64,000 nt of DNA, taken from NCBI RefSeq assembly GCF_020510705.1, contig NZ_CP075184.1, forward strand, positions 2,666,001 through 2,730,000. Reading direction: 5' to 3'. Below the pieces are notes generated by a model, which was not told where the DNA came from, did not search any database, and was given only the letters and a program-made list of their open reading frames with translations. Position 1 is the first letter of the stretch. Every line of letters starts with the position of its first letter. Shown here one piece after another: positions 12,727-27,780 of the stretch. Both the position numbers and the translations under genes were made by a program. The stretch is from Acidovorax radicis (lineage in GTDB: Bacteria > Pseudomonadota > Gammaproteobacteria > Burkholderiales > Burkholderiaceae_C).

Positions 12727-12834
12727 ATGGACTGGGTTTATATGGCAATGGGCGGCACGCTGTGGCTCGCCATTTGTGGGTTAACCAAAGGCTGCGCACG
12801 GCTGCAGGCGCAAGGTCAAGGGGGGCGGTCATGA
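12727..12834 (+). CDS. small hydrophobic protein upstream of kdpF
   Basis: A 35-residue ORF beginning [24 protein letters not shown] lies six bases before the ATG, and its TGA overlaps the kdpF ATG as ATGA, so it is probably the first translated cistron of the operon. One hydrophobic segment (about residues 4-19) is followed by a basic, Gln/Gly-rich tail ([15 protein letters not shown]). This suggests a single-pass membrane microprotein. It could act as a Kdp accessory subunit or only as a leader that couples translation into the 31-residue kdpF. I do not know a name for it. Confidence 0.6.
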
Positions 12835-12926
12835 CCAGCGGCTGGATGATTCTGGCGGCCGTGCTGGCTGCTGCGCTTTTGGTGTACCTGGTCGCCGTGT
12901 TGCTGCGGCCGGAGGACTTTTCATGA
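12831..12926 (+). CDS. kdpF: Kdp potassium ATPase small stabilising subunit KdpF
   Basis: A 31-residue single-span protein beginning [17 protein letters not shown] and ending LRPEDFS, a typical KdpF composition and length. It stabilises the KdpABC complex in the membrane. A G-rich Shine-Dalgarno (AAGGGGGGCGG) precedes the ATG. It overlaps the small upstream ORF and kdpA by 4 bp each, a fully coupled arrangement. Confidence 0.92.
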
Positions 12927-14716
12927 GCACCGGTGCATGGCTGCAATTGGCAGTGTTCATGGCACTGCTGCTGGCGCTGGCTTGGCCGCTGGCGCGTGGT
13001 ATCGACGCCGTGATGGCAGGCCGCTTTGCGCTGGGGCGGCGGCTGGAAGGCCCGCTGTTCCAACTGGCAGGCGTGCGGCCCGATGAAGAGACCGGCTGGC
13101 TGCGCTACGCGCTGGGCCTGCTGGTGTTCAATGGCCTGGGCGTGCTGGCGGTGTATGCGCTGCAGCGCTGGCAAGCCGTGCTGCCGTTCAACCCGCAAGG
13201 CATGGCTGCCGTGTCGCCCGACTCGGCCTTCAACACCGCCATCAGCTTTGTCACCAACACCAACTGGCAGGGCTATGGCGGCGAAAGCACCATGAGCTAC
13301 CTCACGCAGATGCTGGCGCTGACGGTGCAGAACTTCCTGTCTGCCGCCACAGGCTTGGTCGTCGTCATTGCGTTGGTGCGTGGGTTTGCAAGGCATTCAG
13401 CGCAGAGTATTGGCAATGTGTGGGCCGATCTGACCCGCGCCACGCTGTGGGTGCTGCTGCCGCTGTCGCTGGTGCTGGCCGTGGTGTTTGCAGGCCAGGG
13501 CGTGATCCAGAACCTGTCGCCCTATACCGAAGTGCAGACGCTGGAGCCCGTGCATTACGACGCCCCCAAGCTCGATAGCGCAGGCCAGCCCGTGCTGGAC
13601 GCCCAAGGCGCTGCGGTGACCGAGCCCGCCACCCAAACCACCCAGACGCTGGCCATGGGCCCCGTGGCCTCGCAGCTGGCCATCAAGATGCTGGGCACCA
13701 ACGGCGGCGGCTTCTTCAACGCCAACTCGGCCCACCCGTTCGAGAACCCCTCGGCCGCCAGCAACCTGCTGCAGATGCTGGCGATCTTCCTGATACCCGC
13801 CGCTTTATGCCTGGTGTTTGGCCGCATGGTGGGCGATGAGCGCCAGGGCTGGACGATTCTGGCAACGATGAGCCTGCTCTTTGTGGTCGCCGTGGTGGCC
13901 ACCACCGCCTTCGAGCAGCAGGGCAACCCGCTGCTTTCATCGCTGGGCGTGGACCAGGCTGCCAGCGCCCTGCAGGCGGGCGGCAACATGGAAGGCAAGG
14001 AAACGCGCTTCGGCATCGCCACCTCGGCCCTGTTCGCCGTGATCACCACAGCGGCCAGCTGCGGTGCGGTGATTGCCATGCACGACAGCTTCACGCCCCT
14101 GGGCGGCATGGTGCCGATGGTGCTCATGCAGATGGGCGAGGTGGTGTTCGGCGGCGTGGGCTCGGGCCTGTACGGCATGCTGGTGTTCGCCATCATGGCC
14201 GTGTTCATCGCCGGGCTGATGATTGGCCGCACGCCCGAATACCTGGGCAAGAAGATCGAGACGCATGAGATGAAGCTCGTCTCCATCGCCATCCTCGTCA
14301 CGCCGTTGCTCGTATTGCTCGGTACCGCCGTGGCGGTAATGAGCGAGGCAGGCCGCGCGGGCCTCTCCAACCCCGGCGCGCACGGCTTTAGCCAAGTGCT
14401 GTACGCGCTGTCTTCCGCCGCCAACAACAACGGCAGCGCCTTCGCAGGCCTGTCGGCCAACACCCCCTTCTACAACGTGCTGCTGGCCGTGGCCATGTGG
14501 CTGGGGCGCTTTGGTGTGATCGTGCCCGTGCTGGCCATGGCCGGGTCCCTCGCCGCCAAGAAGCGCGCCACCGCCACCGATGGCACCTTGCCCACCCACG
14601 GCCCGCTGTTTGTGGCGCTGCTGGCGGGCGTGGTGCTGCTGGTGGGCTTGCTGAACTATGTGCCCGCCCTCGCGCTGGGCCCGGTGGTTGAGCACCTCGT
14701 GCTCACACCCCGTTGA
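12923..14716 (+). CDS. kdpA: potassium-transporting ATPase subunit A
   Basis: A 597-residue channel-like subunit that binds and selects K+ in KdpFABC. It has about ten membrane segments arranged as four M1-P-M2 repeats. Selectivity loops are visible as [31 protein letters not shown], a [12 protein letters not shown] segment, and [14 protein letters not shown]. The family length is about 560-600 residues. The start overlaps the kdpF stop by 4 bp. Confidence 0.97.
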
Positions 14717-14736
14717 TAAATGGCTGGGAGATTGTG

Positions 14737-16803
14737 ATGACTCGCAAAACATTGACCCTGTTCGACCCCGTCCTGGTGCGCCCTGCGCTGCTGGAGGCTT
14801 TCAAGAAGCTGGACCCGCGTGTGCAATGGCGCAACCCGGTGATGTTTGTGGTGTACGTAGGCAGCGCCTTCACCACCGCGCTGGCCGCCAGCAAGCCCGA
14901 GGGCTTCACGGCTGCCGTGGCCCTGTGGCTGTGGTTCACCGTGCTATTTGCCAACTTTGCCGAGGCCATGGCCGAAGGCCGCAGCAAGGCCCAGGCAGCA
15001 TCGCTGCGCGGGCTAAAAAAGCAGACCTGGGCCAAAAAACTCGACGGCCAGTTTGACCGCACCACCCCACGCACCGAAATGACCTGGCTGCCGCTGGAAG
15101 CCGCCAACTTGCGCAAGGGCGATGTGGTGCTGGTGGAAGCCGGTGACATCATCCCTGCCGATGGCGAGGTGATCGATGGCGTGGCCTCAGTGGACGAGAG
15201 CGCCATCACCGGCGAATCGGCCCCGGTGATCCGCGAATCGGGCGGCGACTTCTCGGCCGTGACGGGCGGCACCCGCGTGCTGTCCGACTGGATCGTGGTG
15301 CGCGTGGCCGTGAACCCCGGCGAGACCTTTGTGGACCGCATGATCGCCATGGTCGAGAACGCCAAGCGCCACAAGACACCCAATGAGATCGCGCTGACCA
15401 TTTTGCTGGTGGCGCTGACCATCGTGTTCCTGGGCGTGGTGGTCACGCTGCTGCCGTTCTCGCTGTTCAGCGTGCAGGCCAGCGGCGCGGGCGAGCCTGT
15501 GAGCCTGGTCGTGCTGGTGGCCCTGCTGGTGTGCCTGATCCCCACCACCATCGCGGGCCTGCTCAGCGCCATCGGCGTGGCAGGCATGAGCCGCATGATG
15601 CAGGCCAATGTGATCGCCACCTCCGGCCGCGCGGTGGAGGCTGCAGGCGACGTGGACGTGCTGCTGCTGGACAAGACCGGCACCATCACCCTGGGCAACC
15701 GGCAGGCCAGCCAGTTCGTGTCTGCGCCCGGCGTGACCGATGCGGCCCTGGCCGATGCAGCGCAGCTCGCGTCGCTGGCCGACGAAACCCCCGAAGGCCG
15801 CAGCATCGTGGTGCTGGCCAAGCAGAAGTTCAACCTGCGCGAGCGTGATCTCTCCAGCCTGCAAGCCACGTTCGTGCCGTTCACTGCGCAAACGCGCATG
15901 AGCGGTGTGGACCTGCCCGGCGCCCGCCTGCTGCGCAAGGGCGCAGCCGATGCCATCCGCAAGCACGTGGAGGCACTGGGCGGGCGCTTCCCCACCGCCG
16001 TACAGACCGCAGTGGACGATGTATCGCGCCGCGGCAGCACACCGCTGGTGGTGGCCGATGGCGCCCATGTGCTGGGCGTGGTGGAGTTGAAAGACGTGGT
16101 CAAGGGCGGCATTAAAGAGCGTTTTGCCGAGCTGCGCCGCATGGGCATCAAGACCGTGATGGTGACGGGCGACAACCGCCTGACCGCCGCCGCGATTGCG
16201 GCCGAGGCCGGTGTGGACGACTTTCTGGCCGAAGCCACACCCGAGGCCAAGCTGCAGCTCATCCGCAGCTACCAGGCCAATGGCCAACTGGTGGCCATGA
16301 CGGGCGACGGCACCAACGACGCCCCCGCCCTGGCCCAGGCCGACGTGGCCGTGGCCATGAACACCGGCACCCAGGCCGCCAAGGAGGCCGGCAACATGGT
16401 GGACCTGGACAGCAACCCCACCAAGCTCATCGAGATTGTGGAGACCGGCAAGCAGATGCTGATGACGCGCGGCTCGCTCACCACCTTCAGCATCGCCAAC
16501 GACATTGCCAAGTACTTCGCCATCATCCCGGCGGCGTTTGTCACCACCTACCCGCAGTTGTCGGCCCTGAACTTCATGCACCTGGCCAGCCCCTCGTCAG
16601 CCATTCTGTCGGCCGTGGTGTTCAACGCGCTGATCATCATCTTCCTGATCCCGCTGGCCTTGAAGGGCGTGGCCTACCGCGCCGTGGGGGCCGCCGCGCT
16701 GCTGCGCCGCAACCTGGCCATTTATGGGCTGGGGGGCATGGTGGTGCCGTTCATTGGCATCAAGTTGATTGACATGGTGCTGGCGGCTGCCGGTCTGACT
16801 TGA
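14737..16803 (+). CDS. kdpB: potassium-transporting ATPase catalytic subunit B
   Basis: A 688-residue P-type ATPase subunit that couples ATP hydrolysis to K+ uptake. The phosphorylated aspartate is Asp312 in [13 protein letters not shown]. Also seen are the TGES actuator motif ([10 protein letters not shown]), the MVTGDN segment and the [11 protein letters not shown] hinge. I chose the ATG at 14737, preceded by GGGAG at a 6-base spacing. A TTG at 14713 in frame overlaps kdpA and would add eight residues. A 170-bp repeat separates it from kdpC. Confidence 0.97.
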
Positions 16804-16976: not shown

Positions 16977-17591
16977 ATGCCTATCCGTATCCCCCGCGAC
17001 GACGTGCCCGCCAGCCCAGGCGGCCTGGTGCGCCCCGCCCTCACGCTGTTTGTTGTGCTGTCCATCGTCACCGGCCTGCTGTACCCGCTGGCCGTGACGG
17101 GCGTGGCGCAAACGGCCTTCCCACACCAAGCCAACGGCAGCTTGATCACCCAGGGTGGCAAGACGGTGGGCTCCGAGCTGATCGGCCAGTCGTTCACCGA
17201 GCCCGGCCATTTCTGGGGCCGCCCGTCGGCCACAGCGCCCATGCCTTACAACGCATCGGCATCGGGCGGCTCCAATCTGGGCCCCACGAACCCGGCGCTG
17301 ACAGATGCCGTCAAGGCCCGCATCGAGGCCCTGCGCGCTGCCGACCCCGGCAACACCCAACCCGTGCCCGTGGACTTGGTCACCGCATCGGCCAGCGGGC
17401 TGGACCCCCACATCAGCCCGGCAGCCGCCGCCTACCAAACCGAGCGCGTGGCCCGTGCCCGGGGCCTGCCCGTGGCGCAGGTACAGGCGCTGGTGCCGCA
17501 ACATACTGAAGGCCCCTGGCTGGGTTTGTTCGGGGAGTCGCGTGTGAACGTGCTGGCCTTGAACCTGGCGCTCGATGCGCTACCAAAATAA
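16977..17591 (+). CDS. kdpC: potassium-transporting ATPase subunit C
   Basis: A 204-residue KdpC, the accessory subunit with one N-terminal membrane segment ([21 protein letters not shown]) and a periplasmic domain. [28 protein letters not shown] is the family signature, and the C-terminal [16 protein letters not shown] is conserved. A GAAAGG lies upstream of the ATG at 16977. Length is normal. It is separated from kdpB by a repeat rather than by the few bases usual for this operon. Confidence 0.96.
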
Positions 17592-17661: not shown

Positions 17662-20391
17662 ATGCAGGATCGCCCCGACCCCGACGCGCTGCTGCAGCGC
17701 ATCCAGCAAGAGCAGGCCCAGCAGCAGCGTGGGCGGCTCAAGGTGTTCTTTGGCGCCTGCGCGGGGGTGGGCAAGACCTTTGCCATGCTGTCCGCCGCCC
17801 GGGCGGCACAGGCGCAGGGCACACCCGTCACCATCGGCGTGGTCGAGACGCATGGCCGCGCCGACACCGACGCGCAGACCGCCCACCTACCGCGCCTACC
17901 GCTGCGCGCCCTGCCCTACAAAGACCGCACCCTGCCCGAGTTTGACCTGGACGCCGCCCTGGCCTGGGGCGCCGCGCACCCCGAGGGCCTGGTGCTGCTG
18001 GACGAACTGGCCCACAGCAATGTGGCCGGATCGCGCCACCCCAAGCGCTGGCAAGACGCCGAAGAACTGCTGGCCGCAGGCATCGACGTGTGGTCCACCA
18101 TGAACGTGCAGCACCTGGAGAGCCTTAACGACATCGTCAGCGGCATCACCGGCATCCGCGTGTGGGAGACGGTGCCCGACCAGTTTTTTGACGCGGCCGA
18201 CGAAGTGGTGGTGGTGGACCTGCCACCTGACGAGCTGCTGGCGCGCCTGAAAGCCGGCAAGGTCTACCTGCCGCAGCAGGCCGAACGAGCCGCCGCCAAC
18301 TTCTTTCGCAAAGGCAACCTGCTGGCCCTGCGCGAGTTGGCCCTGCGCCGCACTGCCGACCGGGTGGACGACGAAATGCGCGCCTACCGCCGCGCCAGCA
18401 CCACCACGGCCGAGGCCGTGTGGCCCAACCGCGAGGCCCTGCTGGCCTGCGTAGGCACGGGCGACAACGCCGAAAAAGTGGTGCGCAGCTGCGCCCGCCT
18501 GGCCGCCCAGCTCGACCTGCCCTGGCACGCCGTCCACGTGGAAACGCCGGAGCAGCAAGGCCAGTCGGCCACCCTGCACCCGCAGGTGGAGCGCACGCTG
18601 AAGATCGCCTAGCAACTGGGCGCTGCCGCCTGCGCCGTGCTGCCCGCAGCCCAGCCCGCACAAGCCCTGGTGCGCTATGCGCGTGAGCACAACCTGGTGC
18701 GCGTGGTGATGGGGCGCAGCGCCCGGCGCTGGCCCTGGCAAGCCACGCTGGCCGAGCAGATCGGGCAAAGTGCCTGCGACCTGGACCTGTTGCAGGTGGG
18801 CACACTGCCCAACCGCTCTGACCACAACGATCGCAAAGCGACCCGCGCCACCGCCGCCGTGTCTCGCACTGCATTCTGGCCCGGCTACATCGCCGCCGCA
18901 CTCGCCTGCTGCGTGGCCGCCGTCATCGCCACACCGCTCGCCAATGTGCTGGAGCTGACCAACATCGTCATGCTGTTTTAGCTGGTGGTGGTGGGTGTGG
19001 CGCTGCGTTTTGGTCGCGGCCCGGCCATCATGGCCGCCTTTATGGGCGTGGGGTTCTTTGACTTTTTCTTTGTGCCGCCGCGCTTCAACTTTGCGGTGAG
19101 CGACGCGCAGTACGTCGTCACCTTTGCCGTGATGCTCGTGGTGGCCCTGGTGGTGGGCCAGCTCACCGCCGGGCTCAAGGTACAGGCCGAGGCCGCTACC
19201 GAGCGCGAACACCGCGTGCGCAGCCTGTACGACATGGCGCGGGACTTGTCTGCTGCCCTGCTGCCCGAGCAGGTGGCGGAGATTGGCGCACGCTTTATCA
19301 CTGGCGAATTCAGCGCAGGCAGCACGCTGGTGGTGGCCGACGATGACAACCGCCTGCAGGTGCTGCCCGGCGGCACCGCCCCCGTGGACATGGCCGTGGC
19401 GCAATGGGCGTTTGAGCGCGGCGAGCCCGCAGGCCGGGGCACGGATACCTTGCACTCCAGCCCCACGCTGGTGCTGCCGCTCAAGGCGCCCATGCGCATC
19501 CGTGGTGTGCTGGTGGTGGCCATGCCACAACACCAAGGTCAAGGCCAGGTACCCGGTGTAGAACCGCGCCGCCTGCTGCAGACCTGCGCCTCGCTGCTCG
19601 CCATTTCGCTCGAACGCATCCACTACATCGACGTGGCGCAAAAAAGCACGGTGCAGATCGAGTCCGAGCGGCTGCGCAACTCGCTGCTCTCGGCCATCTC
19701 GCACGATTTGCGCACGCCGCTGGCCTCGCTGGTCGGCCTGGCCGAATCGCTGGCCATGGTGCAGCCGCCCCTGCCTGCCCACCAACAAGAGCTGACCGGA
19801 GCCATCCAGCAATCGGCCCAGCGCATGAGCGCGCTGGTCAACAACCTGCTGGACATGGCCCGCCTGGAGTCCGGGGCCGTGCAGCTCAACAAGGCCTGGC
19901 AGCCGCTGGAAGAAGTGGTGGGCAGCGCCTTGGCCGCCAGCGCCCCGGCCATCGCTGCGCGCCGCATCGAGGTGACCCTGCCCGACGACCTGCCGTTGCT
20001 GCAAATCGACGCCGTGCTGATGGAACGCGTGCTGGTCAACCTGCTTGAAAACGCCGCTAAGTACACCCCCGTAGACACCACCATTCACATCAGCGTGCAG
20101 CCCCAAAGCGATGCCGTGGCCTTGACCATCACCGACGAAGGCCCCGGCCTGCCCAAAGGGCGCGAAGAGCTGCTGTTTGAAAAGTTTGAGCGTGGCGCCC
20201 GCGAAAGCGCCACGCCCGGCGTCGGCCTGGGGCTGGCGATTTGCCGCGCCATCGTGCAGGCGCATGGTGGCAGCATCCGGGGCGATACGATCCTCAACGC
20301 GCAGGGCCAGCCTGCAGGCGCACGCTTTACGCTGCTGCTGCCACGCGGCACACCGCCCACCGACCTGGGCACCGATGTCCCCTATGCTTGA
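17662..20391 (+). pseudogene. kdpD: kdpD sensor histidine kinase with two in-frame amber codons
   Basis: The frame encodes a full 909-codon KdpD, the K+/turgor sensor kinase, but codons 317 (18610-18612) and 440 (18979-18981) are TAG. All three pieces are in one frame with no indel. The N-terminal KdpD domain has Walker A GACAGVGKTFAML and is intact. A UspA-like domain spans about 250-370 and contains the first stop. The second stop lies in the membrane domain. GAF, HisKA (His681 in SHDLRTPLASL) and the ATPase domain with DEGPGLPKG follow. Each stop is one base from a plausible sense codon: CAG or GAG for the first, TTG for the second. The gene may be inactive, read through, split, or mis-sequenced. 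Confidence 0.9.
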
Positions 20392-20406
20392 TTCGCAAGG
20401 ATGCTC

Positions 20407-20507
20407 ATTCCATTTCTAAATCATCCGTGTCGTTGTTGCTTCGCCTTGCCGTGCTACAGCACTGTCTGCGGCTTCGCGCCTAGACACAAATGATTTGGAA
20501 ATGGAAT
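20407..20507. repeat. large imperfect inverted repeat between kdpD and kdpE
   Basis: Arms of 25 bp at 20407-20431 and 20483-20507 (ATTCCATTTCTAAATCAT paired with ATGATTTGGAAATGGAAT) are complementary with three mismatches. They enclose a 51-bp GC-rich core with its own hairpin potential. The element looks like a dispersed non-autonomous repeat, not an intact insertion sequence. Confidence 0.75.
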
Positions 20508-20527
20508 CAGATGCCGCCACCCCATCT

Positions 20528-20595
20528 GTTCGGGCTGAGCTTGTCGAAGCCGGGGCGCTGATCGTCAGCAGCCCTTCGACAGGCTCAGGGCGAAC
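20528..20595. repeat. palindromic GTTCGGGCTGAGC repeat
   Basis: GTTCGGGCTGAGCTTGTCG at 20528 pairs with CGACAGGCTCAGGGCGAAC ending at 20595, 19 of 22 bases over the arms, around a 24-bp loop. I recognise this as an intergenic palindrome widespread in proteobacterial genomes. It ends 42 bp before kdpE. Confidence 0.75.
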
Positions 20596-20637
20596 GGAGC
20601 TATTTTTCCAGCCTCGCTGTCCCCCCAAGCACGCACC

Positions 20638-21360
20638 ATGACCGACCTGCCCACCCACATCCTCATCGTCGAAGACGAAGCCGACATCCGCCGCTTTGTG
20701 CGCCTGACGCTGGAGAGCGAGGGCCACACCGTGCACGAGGCCGCCACCCTGCAGCGCGGCCTGATCGAGGCCGGCACCCGCCGCCCCGATCTGGTGGTGC
20801 TGGACCTGGGCCTGCCCGACGGCGACGGCGTGGACTTGATCCGCGACCTGCGCACCTGGTCGGCCATGCCCATCATCGTGCTCTCGGCCCGCAGCGCCGA
20901 GGCCAGCAAGATCGCGGCGCTGGACGCCGGGGCCGACGACTACCTGGTCAAGCCCTTTGGCTCGGACGAGCTGATGGCCCGCGTGCGCGCCCAGCTGCGC
21001 CGCAGCCAGCGCGCATCCGGCACCGAAGCCACACCCGTCATCCAGTTCGGCCCCATCACCGTGGACCTGGCCCGCCGCACCGTAGAGCGCAGCACGGACG
21101 GCAATGGTGAAGGCGATGGCAGCGAGGCACTGCACCTCACGCCCATCGAATACAAGCTACTCACCTACCTGGCCTCCCAGCCCGACCGCGTCATCACCCA
21201 CGCCCAATTGCTCAAGGCCGTGTGGGGCCCAGGCCATGCCGAAGACACGCACTATGTGCGCGTGCACATGGCCAACCTGCGCAAGAAGGTGGAACACAAC
21301 GCCTCCATGCCCCGGCACCTTCGGACTGAGGCGGGCATTGGGTACCGGTTCGTGCCTTGA
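20638..21360 (+). CDS. kdpE: KDP operon response regulator KdpE
   Basis: A 240-residue OmpR-family regulator. The receiver domain starts THILIVEDEADIRRFVRLTLE, with the phosphoacceptor Asp in LVVLDLGLPDGDGVDLI and the conserved Lys in DDYLVKPFG. The C-terminal winged helix contains LTPIEYKLLTYLASQPDRVITHAQLLKAVWGP. It would activate kdpFABC under K+ limitation. The reading frame is intact although its partner kdpD is interrupted, and 246 bp of repeat DNA separate the two. Confidence 0.95.
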   Translation: MTDLPTHILIVEDEADIRRFVRLTLESEGHTVHEAATLQRGLIEAGTRRPDLVVLDLGLPDGDGVDLIRDLRTWSAMPIIVLSARSAEASKIAALDAGADDYLVKPFGSDELMARVRAQLRRSQRASGTEATPVIQFGPITVDLARRTVERSTDGNGEGDGSEALHLTPIEYKLLTYLASQPDRVITHAQLLKAVWGPGHAEDTHYVRVHMANLRKKVEHNASMPRHLRTEAGIGYRFVP

Positions 21361-27631: not shown

Positions 27632-27728
27632 GGTGCACGGGCCCGGGAGGACAAAGGTACGGAAAAGCGGACAAGCGGGTAACCACGGCCACACACCACG
27701 GTGTGCAAGGTCACAGCACTATGATTTT

Positions 27729-27780
27729 AATAGCTGCTAGCGCTTTTGCATCAAGCGCTGGCGGCCATTTTCGCTCATGA
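27729..27780 (+). repeat. dispersed palindromic repeat, AGCGCTT family, copy 3
   Basis: TAGCTGCTAGCGCTTTTGC, then ATCAAGCGCTGGCGGCCA and TTTTCGCTCATGAA, between the AEC permease start and the end of the beta-helix protein gene. Confidence 0.85.

Follow-up and report, generated by a model that had tools for sequence, protein, structure and literature searches.

Probable recent loss of a redundant KdpD histidine kinase in an Acidovorax genome with two kdp operons

What has become of a sensor-kinase gene whose reading frame is interrupted by two stop codons and is otherwise whole? The question is raised by kdpD of one kdp operon (operon A, products marked -A) in a 64,000-nucleotide stretch of DNA (hereafter the window), which covers positions 2666001-2730000 of a genome assembled as a single contig of 4,995,154 bases. 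The gene occupies 17662..20391 of the window on the forward strand and is a frame of 909 codons running from ATG at 17662 to TGA at 20389-20391. A sequence-only reading of this DNA had reported two in-frame TAG codons without an indel, and reading of the window together with alignment to orthologues confirms them: the first is codon 317 (18610..18612, +), the second codon 440 (18979..18981, +), within the DUF4118 membrane domain. Comparison of the frame 17662-20391 with orthologues reveals, besides these two codons, no stop, frameshift or indel. The evidence below makes it likely that kdpD-A is a recently inactivated histidine-kinase gene: a redundant, spare sensor.

The remainder of the frame is intact, as first noted. 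Walker A (GKT, residues 37-39) is present, the Walker B Asp/Glu pair (residues 114-115) lies within LLDEL, which begins at residue 112, SHDLRTP begins at residue 680 and places the phospho-acceptor histidine at 681, and the kinase domains are recovered by Pfam. Three open pieces result from the two stops. The first (316 aa; 17662..18612, +) contains a complete KdpD domain at residues 22-235 (PF02702; 297.2 bits against a cut-off of 26.1) plus about half of a Usp domain. The extent of the latter is transferred by position from the E. coli protein, where Usp spans 253-365 (PMC2714519, in excerpt), no Usp family match being obtained here. The middle piece, between the two TAGs, has no Pfam match. 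The last (18982..20391, +) encodes the rest of DUF4118 (matched only at profile positions 33-107), GAF_3, HisKA with His681 and HATPase_c, and a start-site scan gave it no convincing start of its own. A sensor kinase carries DUF4118, HisKA and HATPase_c on one continuous chain; here these domains are encoded behind two TAGs.

The other genes of operon A, all on the forward strand, are full-length and intact, in agreement with what had been claimed for kdpE, kdpA, kdpB and kdpC: kdpA (597 aa; 12923..14716; Pfam KdpA, 2.9e-236), kdpB (696 aa; 14713..16803; Pfam, with TGES at 166-169 and DKTGT at 320), kdpC (204 aa; 16977..17591; Pfam KdpC, 3.8e-80) and the response-regulator gene kdpE (240 aa; 20638..21360; Pfam Response_reg and Trans_reg_C). 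A small ORF seen in translation (31 aa; 12831..12926, +) overlaps the start of kdpA and is presumably kdpF-like, a name given from its position and from the character of KdpF. KdpA-A is 94.8-97.7% identical in eight relatives and 90.8% identical in a ninth locus (L008); KdpB-A is 93-99% identical, over nearly its full length, in nine relatives.

If one or both TAGs were sequencing or assembly errors, kdpD would be intact, and a frame that looks constrained apart from its stops is what such an error would leave. Against this, the assembly is a single contig, 100% complete with 0.33% contamination, and errors of this kind do not recur around the gene. A census compared 118 conserved genes over approximately 400 kb with the relative G004, and a script flagged 11 of them; kdpD is the sole gene found to have stops inside a domain (two others being judged by position only). 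Nine further flagged genes with in-frame stops are explained by query frames that had been over-extended mechanically: in seven, every stop precedes the first Pfam domain, while the other two genes, with stops at query residues 6 and 30, cross locus borders and were judged likewise from position only. The eleventh encodes an acyltransferase (2633492_2634349; G000:C1:2586878-2587532) whose last 42 residues, behind the domain, align to G004 in another frame; this may be a real 3' frameshift. Given 48,012 aligned residues in 116 genes, the chance of a second independent error falling in the same 909-codon gene is about 2%, and the two changes, relative to the orthologues, differ in mutation class, which argues against one systematic miscall. 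Base-calling error, one of the options offered by the sequence-only reading, is on these grounds very unlikely.

Could the stops be read as sense? Stop codon usage was scored in 116 genes, 115 of which have a placed stop: 17 end in TAG, 71 in TGA and 27 in TAA, which bears out the earlier statement that TAG has not been reassigned. A search for tRNAs (RF00005) returned 49 genes, none with the CUA anticodon of an amber suppressor (a tRNA missed by RF00005 would escape), and release factor RF1 (prfA) is present (495.7 bits against a cut-off of 423.25). UAG recoding would call for a UAG-reading tRNA; instead RF1 is kept and TAG serves as a terminator, and neither recoding nor base error is a likely source of the stops. 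Readthrough or suppression yielding a functional, full-length KdpD-A had also been suggested. The sequence beyond the stops shows no visible relaxation of constraint, as would be expected if the whole chain were made; however, there is no CUA-anticodon tRNA among the 49, RF1 is present, TAG is an ordinary terminator (17/115), the TAGs occur in none of 13 full-length orthologues, and each of two successive stops would need to be read through, which multiplies the losses. We regard readthrough as improbable in the extreme. Clustering of TAG was considered as a signal in its own right and rejected: of the stop codons that a single change could create in an orthologue, 61-64% are TAG, so that the choice of TAG at both sites (a chance of 37-41%, from that share) is unremarkable.

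The history of the two codons is seen most directly in other genomes. KdpD proteins of the genus fall into two types by score, A and B, and at both sites each of the 13 full-length type-A orthologues (DNA identity 80-93%) has a sense codon; moreover, a single identical residue is encoded at codon 317 across the 13, and likewise at codon 440. The disabling stops are therefore absent from the orthologues, as is expected of a pseudogene. The same TAGs recurring elsewhere had been raised as an alternative, and were found in 0/13. The 13 orthologues, together with a fourteenth type-A carrier cut by a contig end (G030), are all the type-A carriers found, provided that L005 and L007 correspond to G060 and G066, a match suggested by their contig positions. 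Duplicate loci (L003, L004, L006, L008) were left out of the 13, as was L021, which duplicates L037; the distant L009 and L040 lie outside the 13 and within the comparison that follows, and L026 is in neither. Within the best match of 18 further loci (17 more distant KdpDs plus G030) no stop was found. Codon 440 is covered in 15 of the 18 and encodes the same residue as the type-A orthologues in all 15; codon 317, also covered in 15, varies. G030, open over 379 codons, encodes the orthologues' residue at 317. Among named species, the nearest by KdpD are A. radicis N35 and A. delafieldii DSM 64. Among near relatives from a protein search, P0002 has sense codons at both sites and P0001 at 317, its frame leaving the alignment before 440. 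The best 120 of 5615 matches to the N-terminal piece included no near-identical 316-aa product from another isolate (clustering may hide one), a scan of viral contigs found no relative, and literature on Acidovorax kdpD and on kdpD pseudogenes or nonsense mutations yielded no report of this case among the matches listed. Papers on Francisella pseudogenes contain the words kdpD and pseudogene together, a possible parallel.

A second kdp operon (type B), outside the view of the sequence-only reading, is found at approximately 1.563-1.571 Mb and encodes KdpA (601 aa), KdpB (697 aa), KdpC (191 aa), KdpD (920 aa) and KdpE, all open. It adjoins genes for CorA, a Gcw_chp protein and a Kup-type (K_trans) transporter; on its other flank are a GNAT/C39 protein and a RimK-like protein, with an integrase-core (rve) transposase-like gene further out. 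Between the B and A copies identity is 49.5% for KdpD, 58% for KdpE and 78% for KdpB. KdpD-B (L103) comprises the same domain families in the same order as the KdpD-A frame; it differs in that its frame is open and that, as a paralogue, it belongs to the opposite branch of KdpDs in the genus tree. The Gcw_chp gene of the type-B module (L103:17067-17724) shares 98.8% identity across 658 bases with a copy at approximately 302 kb (L144:1106-1763), and the stretch is mostly about 76-86% identical in other genomes of the genus; judged by these identities, the pair looks like a recent gene conversion or duplication.

Carriage of both types is rare. Among 47 genomes of the genus, KdpD was matched in 33 (32 over the cut-off) and KdpA in 33; a duplicate of either, KdpD-domain gene or KdpA gene, occurs in this genome alone, which has two of each. 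Type A occurs in 15 genomes and type B in 18, this genome being counted in both. A weak KdpD-domain match below the cut-off (G018:C261:10838-11182) lies in a 216-aa frame of a genome that is 82% complete and in which no KdpA was found. The KdpD tree has two branches, of 12 type-A and 15 type-B rows (G030, G060, G066, G063, G068 and G069, and the outside rows G042, G056 and G059, are excluded). With both types included, A. radicis N35 groups with G021 and the tree leaves the placement of the window's KdpD-A unresolved; without the type-B rows the latter stands next to G033. These placements require either two gains or several losses of the type-B operon. The operon is 86.6% identical to that of G005 over 11.7 kb, and a 5-kb control region has two conserved stretches that are 84% and 76% identical to the same genome; on these figures a horizontal gain of type B is possible, as is vertical descent.

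A reciprocal case is found in A. radicis N35 (taken as G034). Its KdpD-A is intact at 909 aa. Contig C2 opens with the end of an IS21 IstB gene; next come a type-B KdpD reduced to its C-terminal portion, KdpE-B and the RimK module, at 88% identity with this genome. A search of G034 for another KdpA gave none (N35 is a draft, and missing genes could be unassembled). N35 and the lineage studied here thus seem to have lost opposite sensors.

Recent decay, one of several options in the sequence-only reading, is accordingly the one we favor, on the strength of the two TAGs, the sense codons in 13/13 orthologues and the second open kdp operon. Under it, the complete type-B kdpABCDE operon would have rendered the type-A sensor dispensable, and kdpD-A would then have been hit by two nonsense changes. 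Codon 317 should terminate translation and release a 316-residue piece that lacks the membrane, DHp and ATPase domains, leaving KdpE-A presumably without its cognate kinase. K+-dependent transcription would rest on KdpD-B/KdpE-B, and KdpFABC-A would be made at a basal level or be driven by cross-talk. Cross-talk from KdpD-B to KdpE-A is possible; in alignment, several residues after the phospho-acceptor histidine differ between KdpD-A and KdpD-B. The earlier suggestion that regulation by K+ may be lost has to be softened, because the intact operon B carries its own KdpD and KdpE: what stands is the probable loss of operon A's own sensor. There are points against recent loss. The case is a single isolate, and the argument that redundancy allowed the loss draws on two cases, type-B carriers being few among type-A genomes.

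A further prediction concerns constraint. Private changes were defined as codons changed only in the window among nine type-A genomes (the window and eight of the 13 orthologues). For kdpD there are 18 synonymous, 3 missense and 1 stop (the second stop falls outside the count, as the synonymous form of that codon varies); for kdpA plus kdpB there are 31 synonymous and 1 missense, and kdpE-A has 1 synonymous and 0 missense. The absence of clearly relaxed constraint (kdpD against kdpA plus kdpB, P = 0.29) tells against loss, unless inactivation was very recent or part of kdpD is still used. Had kdpD been neutral along the whole branch, the neutral ratio of missense to synonymous changes (2.2-2.7) would predict some 40 missense changes or more; since only 3 are seen, the counts point to inactivation late on the branch. 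The expected stop-to-missense ratio is 0.032-0.037, and two stops alongside 3 missense changes are a little lucky, which also weighs against the recent-loss reading. Within the gene, codons 1-316 have 11 synonymous and 0 missense changes, and codons 318-909 have 7 and 3 plus the two stops; front and rear differ at P = 0.09 without the stops and P = 0.037 with them, in a test chosen after the fact. In the other eight taxa the corresponding counts (69:29 and 151:52) do not differ (P = 0.49).

Might the pieces still work together? A restart after codon 440 would give a C-terminal piece that, with the N-terminal piece, forms a two-chain sensor as in Deinococcus. D. radiodurans has KdpD-N plus a separate kinase (PMC5716572, in excerpt), and a title cited in PMC11018627 states that N- and C-terminal parts of E. 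coli KdpD complement each other. GTG and ATG codons are present beyond the stop. Of the candidate starts listed for codons 318-538, four are preceded by 4/6 matches to AGGAGG, and two of the four (GTG 446 and GTG 498) have a spacing greater than 2; these GTGs follow the second stop and equal the native kdpD start, also 4/6, at usable spacing. The test consequently separates little, and no ribosome site exceeds 4/6. A restart after 440 would, furthermore, sacrifice the beginning of DUF4118 (only profile positions 33-107 are matched by the last piece), and two stops leave the middle piece over as an orphan, a third fragment. The split-protein restart proposed at the outset thus retains the two GTGs as weak support, no site being better than the native one, and we think it highly improbable.

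A different use of the front piece is compatible with loss of the histidine kinase, and competes only with the idea that nothing of the gene still functions: the 316-residue piece may survive as an independent serine kinase, phosphorylating KdpB and curbing the pump post-translationally, as short KdpDs elsewhere may do. By analogy there is precedent. In E. coli the isolated KdpD domain (1-230) is able to phosphorylate KdpB at its TGES serine, and naturally short KdpDs without a histidine kinase exist, mainly in species without KdpE (both PMC11018627, in excerpt). Here the whole KdpD domain (22-235) precedes codon 317, Walker A (GKT 37-39) and the Walker B Asp/Glu (114-115) are kept, the TGES serine is found in both KdpB paralogues, a structure of an isolated homologous domain (2r8r) matches residues 22-244, and no missense private change precedes codon 317 against three plus two stops after it. 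On the other hand, the chain ends at 316 and its Usp domain is halved, unlike the short KdpDs with KdpD plus Usp; kdpE is retained, whereas the kinase-less versions occur mainly in species without it (PMC11018627, in excerpt); and the difference in constraint is weak, post hoc and without parallel in the other eight taxa. The residue after GKT is F40 (F in 12/13 orthologues, Y in 1/13 and in 2r8r) in place of E. coli W39, which is said to help hold adenine; judged from these sequences, the change may be harmless. In E. coli, N-terminal KdpD 1-395 leads to constitutive kdpFABC expression (PMC2714519, in excerpt). Possible fates of the piece are that it is inert, an unregulated serine kinase, or a stabilizer of KdpE; most likely it is inert or nearly so, and retention as a serine kinase is rather unlikely. 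The fuller proposal – that nonsense mutation split a two-function KdpD, that the front piece is retained as a serine kinase uncoupled from K+ sensing that could hold back one or both Kdp pumps, and that N35 resolved the redundancy in the opposite way – can be advanced only tentatively, with doubt outweighing expectation.

Set beside known systems (as described in excerpts of PMC11018627 and PMC5716572), the unbroken frame has the domain order of E. coli KdpD, a tandem serine/histidine kinase (KdpD, Usp by position, DUF4118, GAF, HisKA, HATPase), shares its Walker A and B motifs, and has in common with it the TGES serine of KdpB (PMC11018627). Unlike E. coli KdpD, the chain here should end inside Usp, lacking histidine-kinase and membrane parts, and has F for W after GKT. 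In having a KdpD domain with no histidine kinase on the same chain it is like the short KdpDs (KdpD-N of Deinococcus and cyanobacteria, and DgKdpD; PMC11018627, PMC5716572), and two kdp operons per genome are reported for cyanobacteria also (PMC11018627, PMC5716572). It differs from the short forms in that the truncation is recent and due to nonsense codons, half of Usp is left, the remainder of the gene persists downstream and kdpE is kept.

Most likely, then, the loss is real, recent and largely ordinary, its interest coming from operon B, the reverse case in N35 and the possible survival of the serine kinase. It illustrates how a bacterium that carries two K+-pump operons may discard one redundant sensor, the converse loss being visible in A. 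radicis N35. An active front piece would exemplify a natural transition from the bifunctional form of KdpD towards the short KdpDs that have serine-kinase function only; if the piece is inactive, this is ordinary gene decay, and operon A should not be annotated as K+-regulated by its own sensor.

Several minor features were recorded. Between kdpD and kdpE lies an imperfect palindrome (20404..20510, no strand assigned), identified by sequence comparison, with 28-nt arms at 20404-20431 and 20483-20510. It was considered as the cause of the breakage of kdpD and rejected: L032 and L007 carry a similar palindromic element at the same place beside an intact kdpD. As to its spread, the junction pattern gave nothing to show in 9 of 13 loci. 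A second repeat-like stretch follows at approximately 20535-20600. One protein from the searches, P0187 (817 aa, named KdpA of Pseudomonas fluorescens), has KdpA, DUF4118, GAF, HisKA and HATPase on one chain, and is either a fusion of pump subunit and sensor kinase or an artefact. Elsewhere in the window, at approximately 27717-27778, a stretch of about 55 bases matches dozens of places in several genomes of the genus and is probably a dispersed intergenic repeat.
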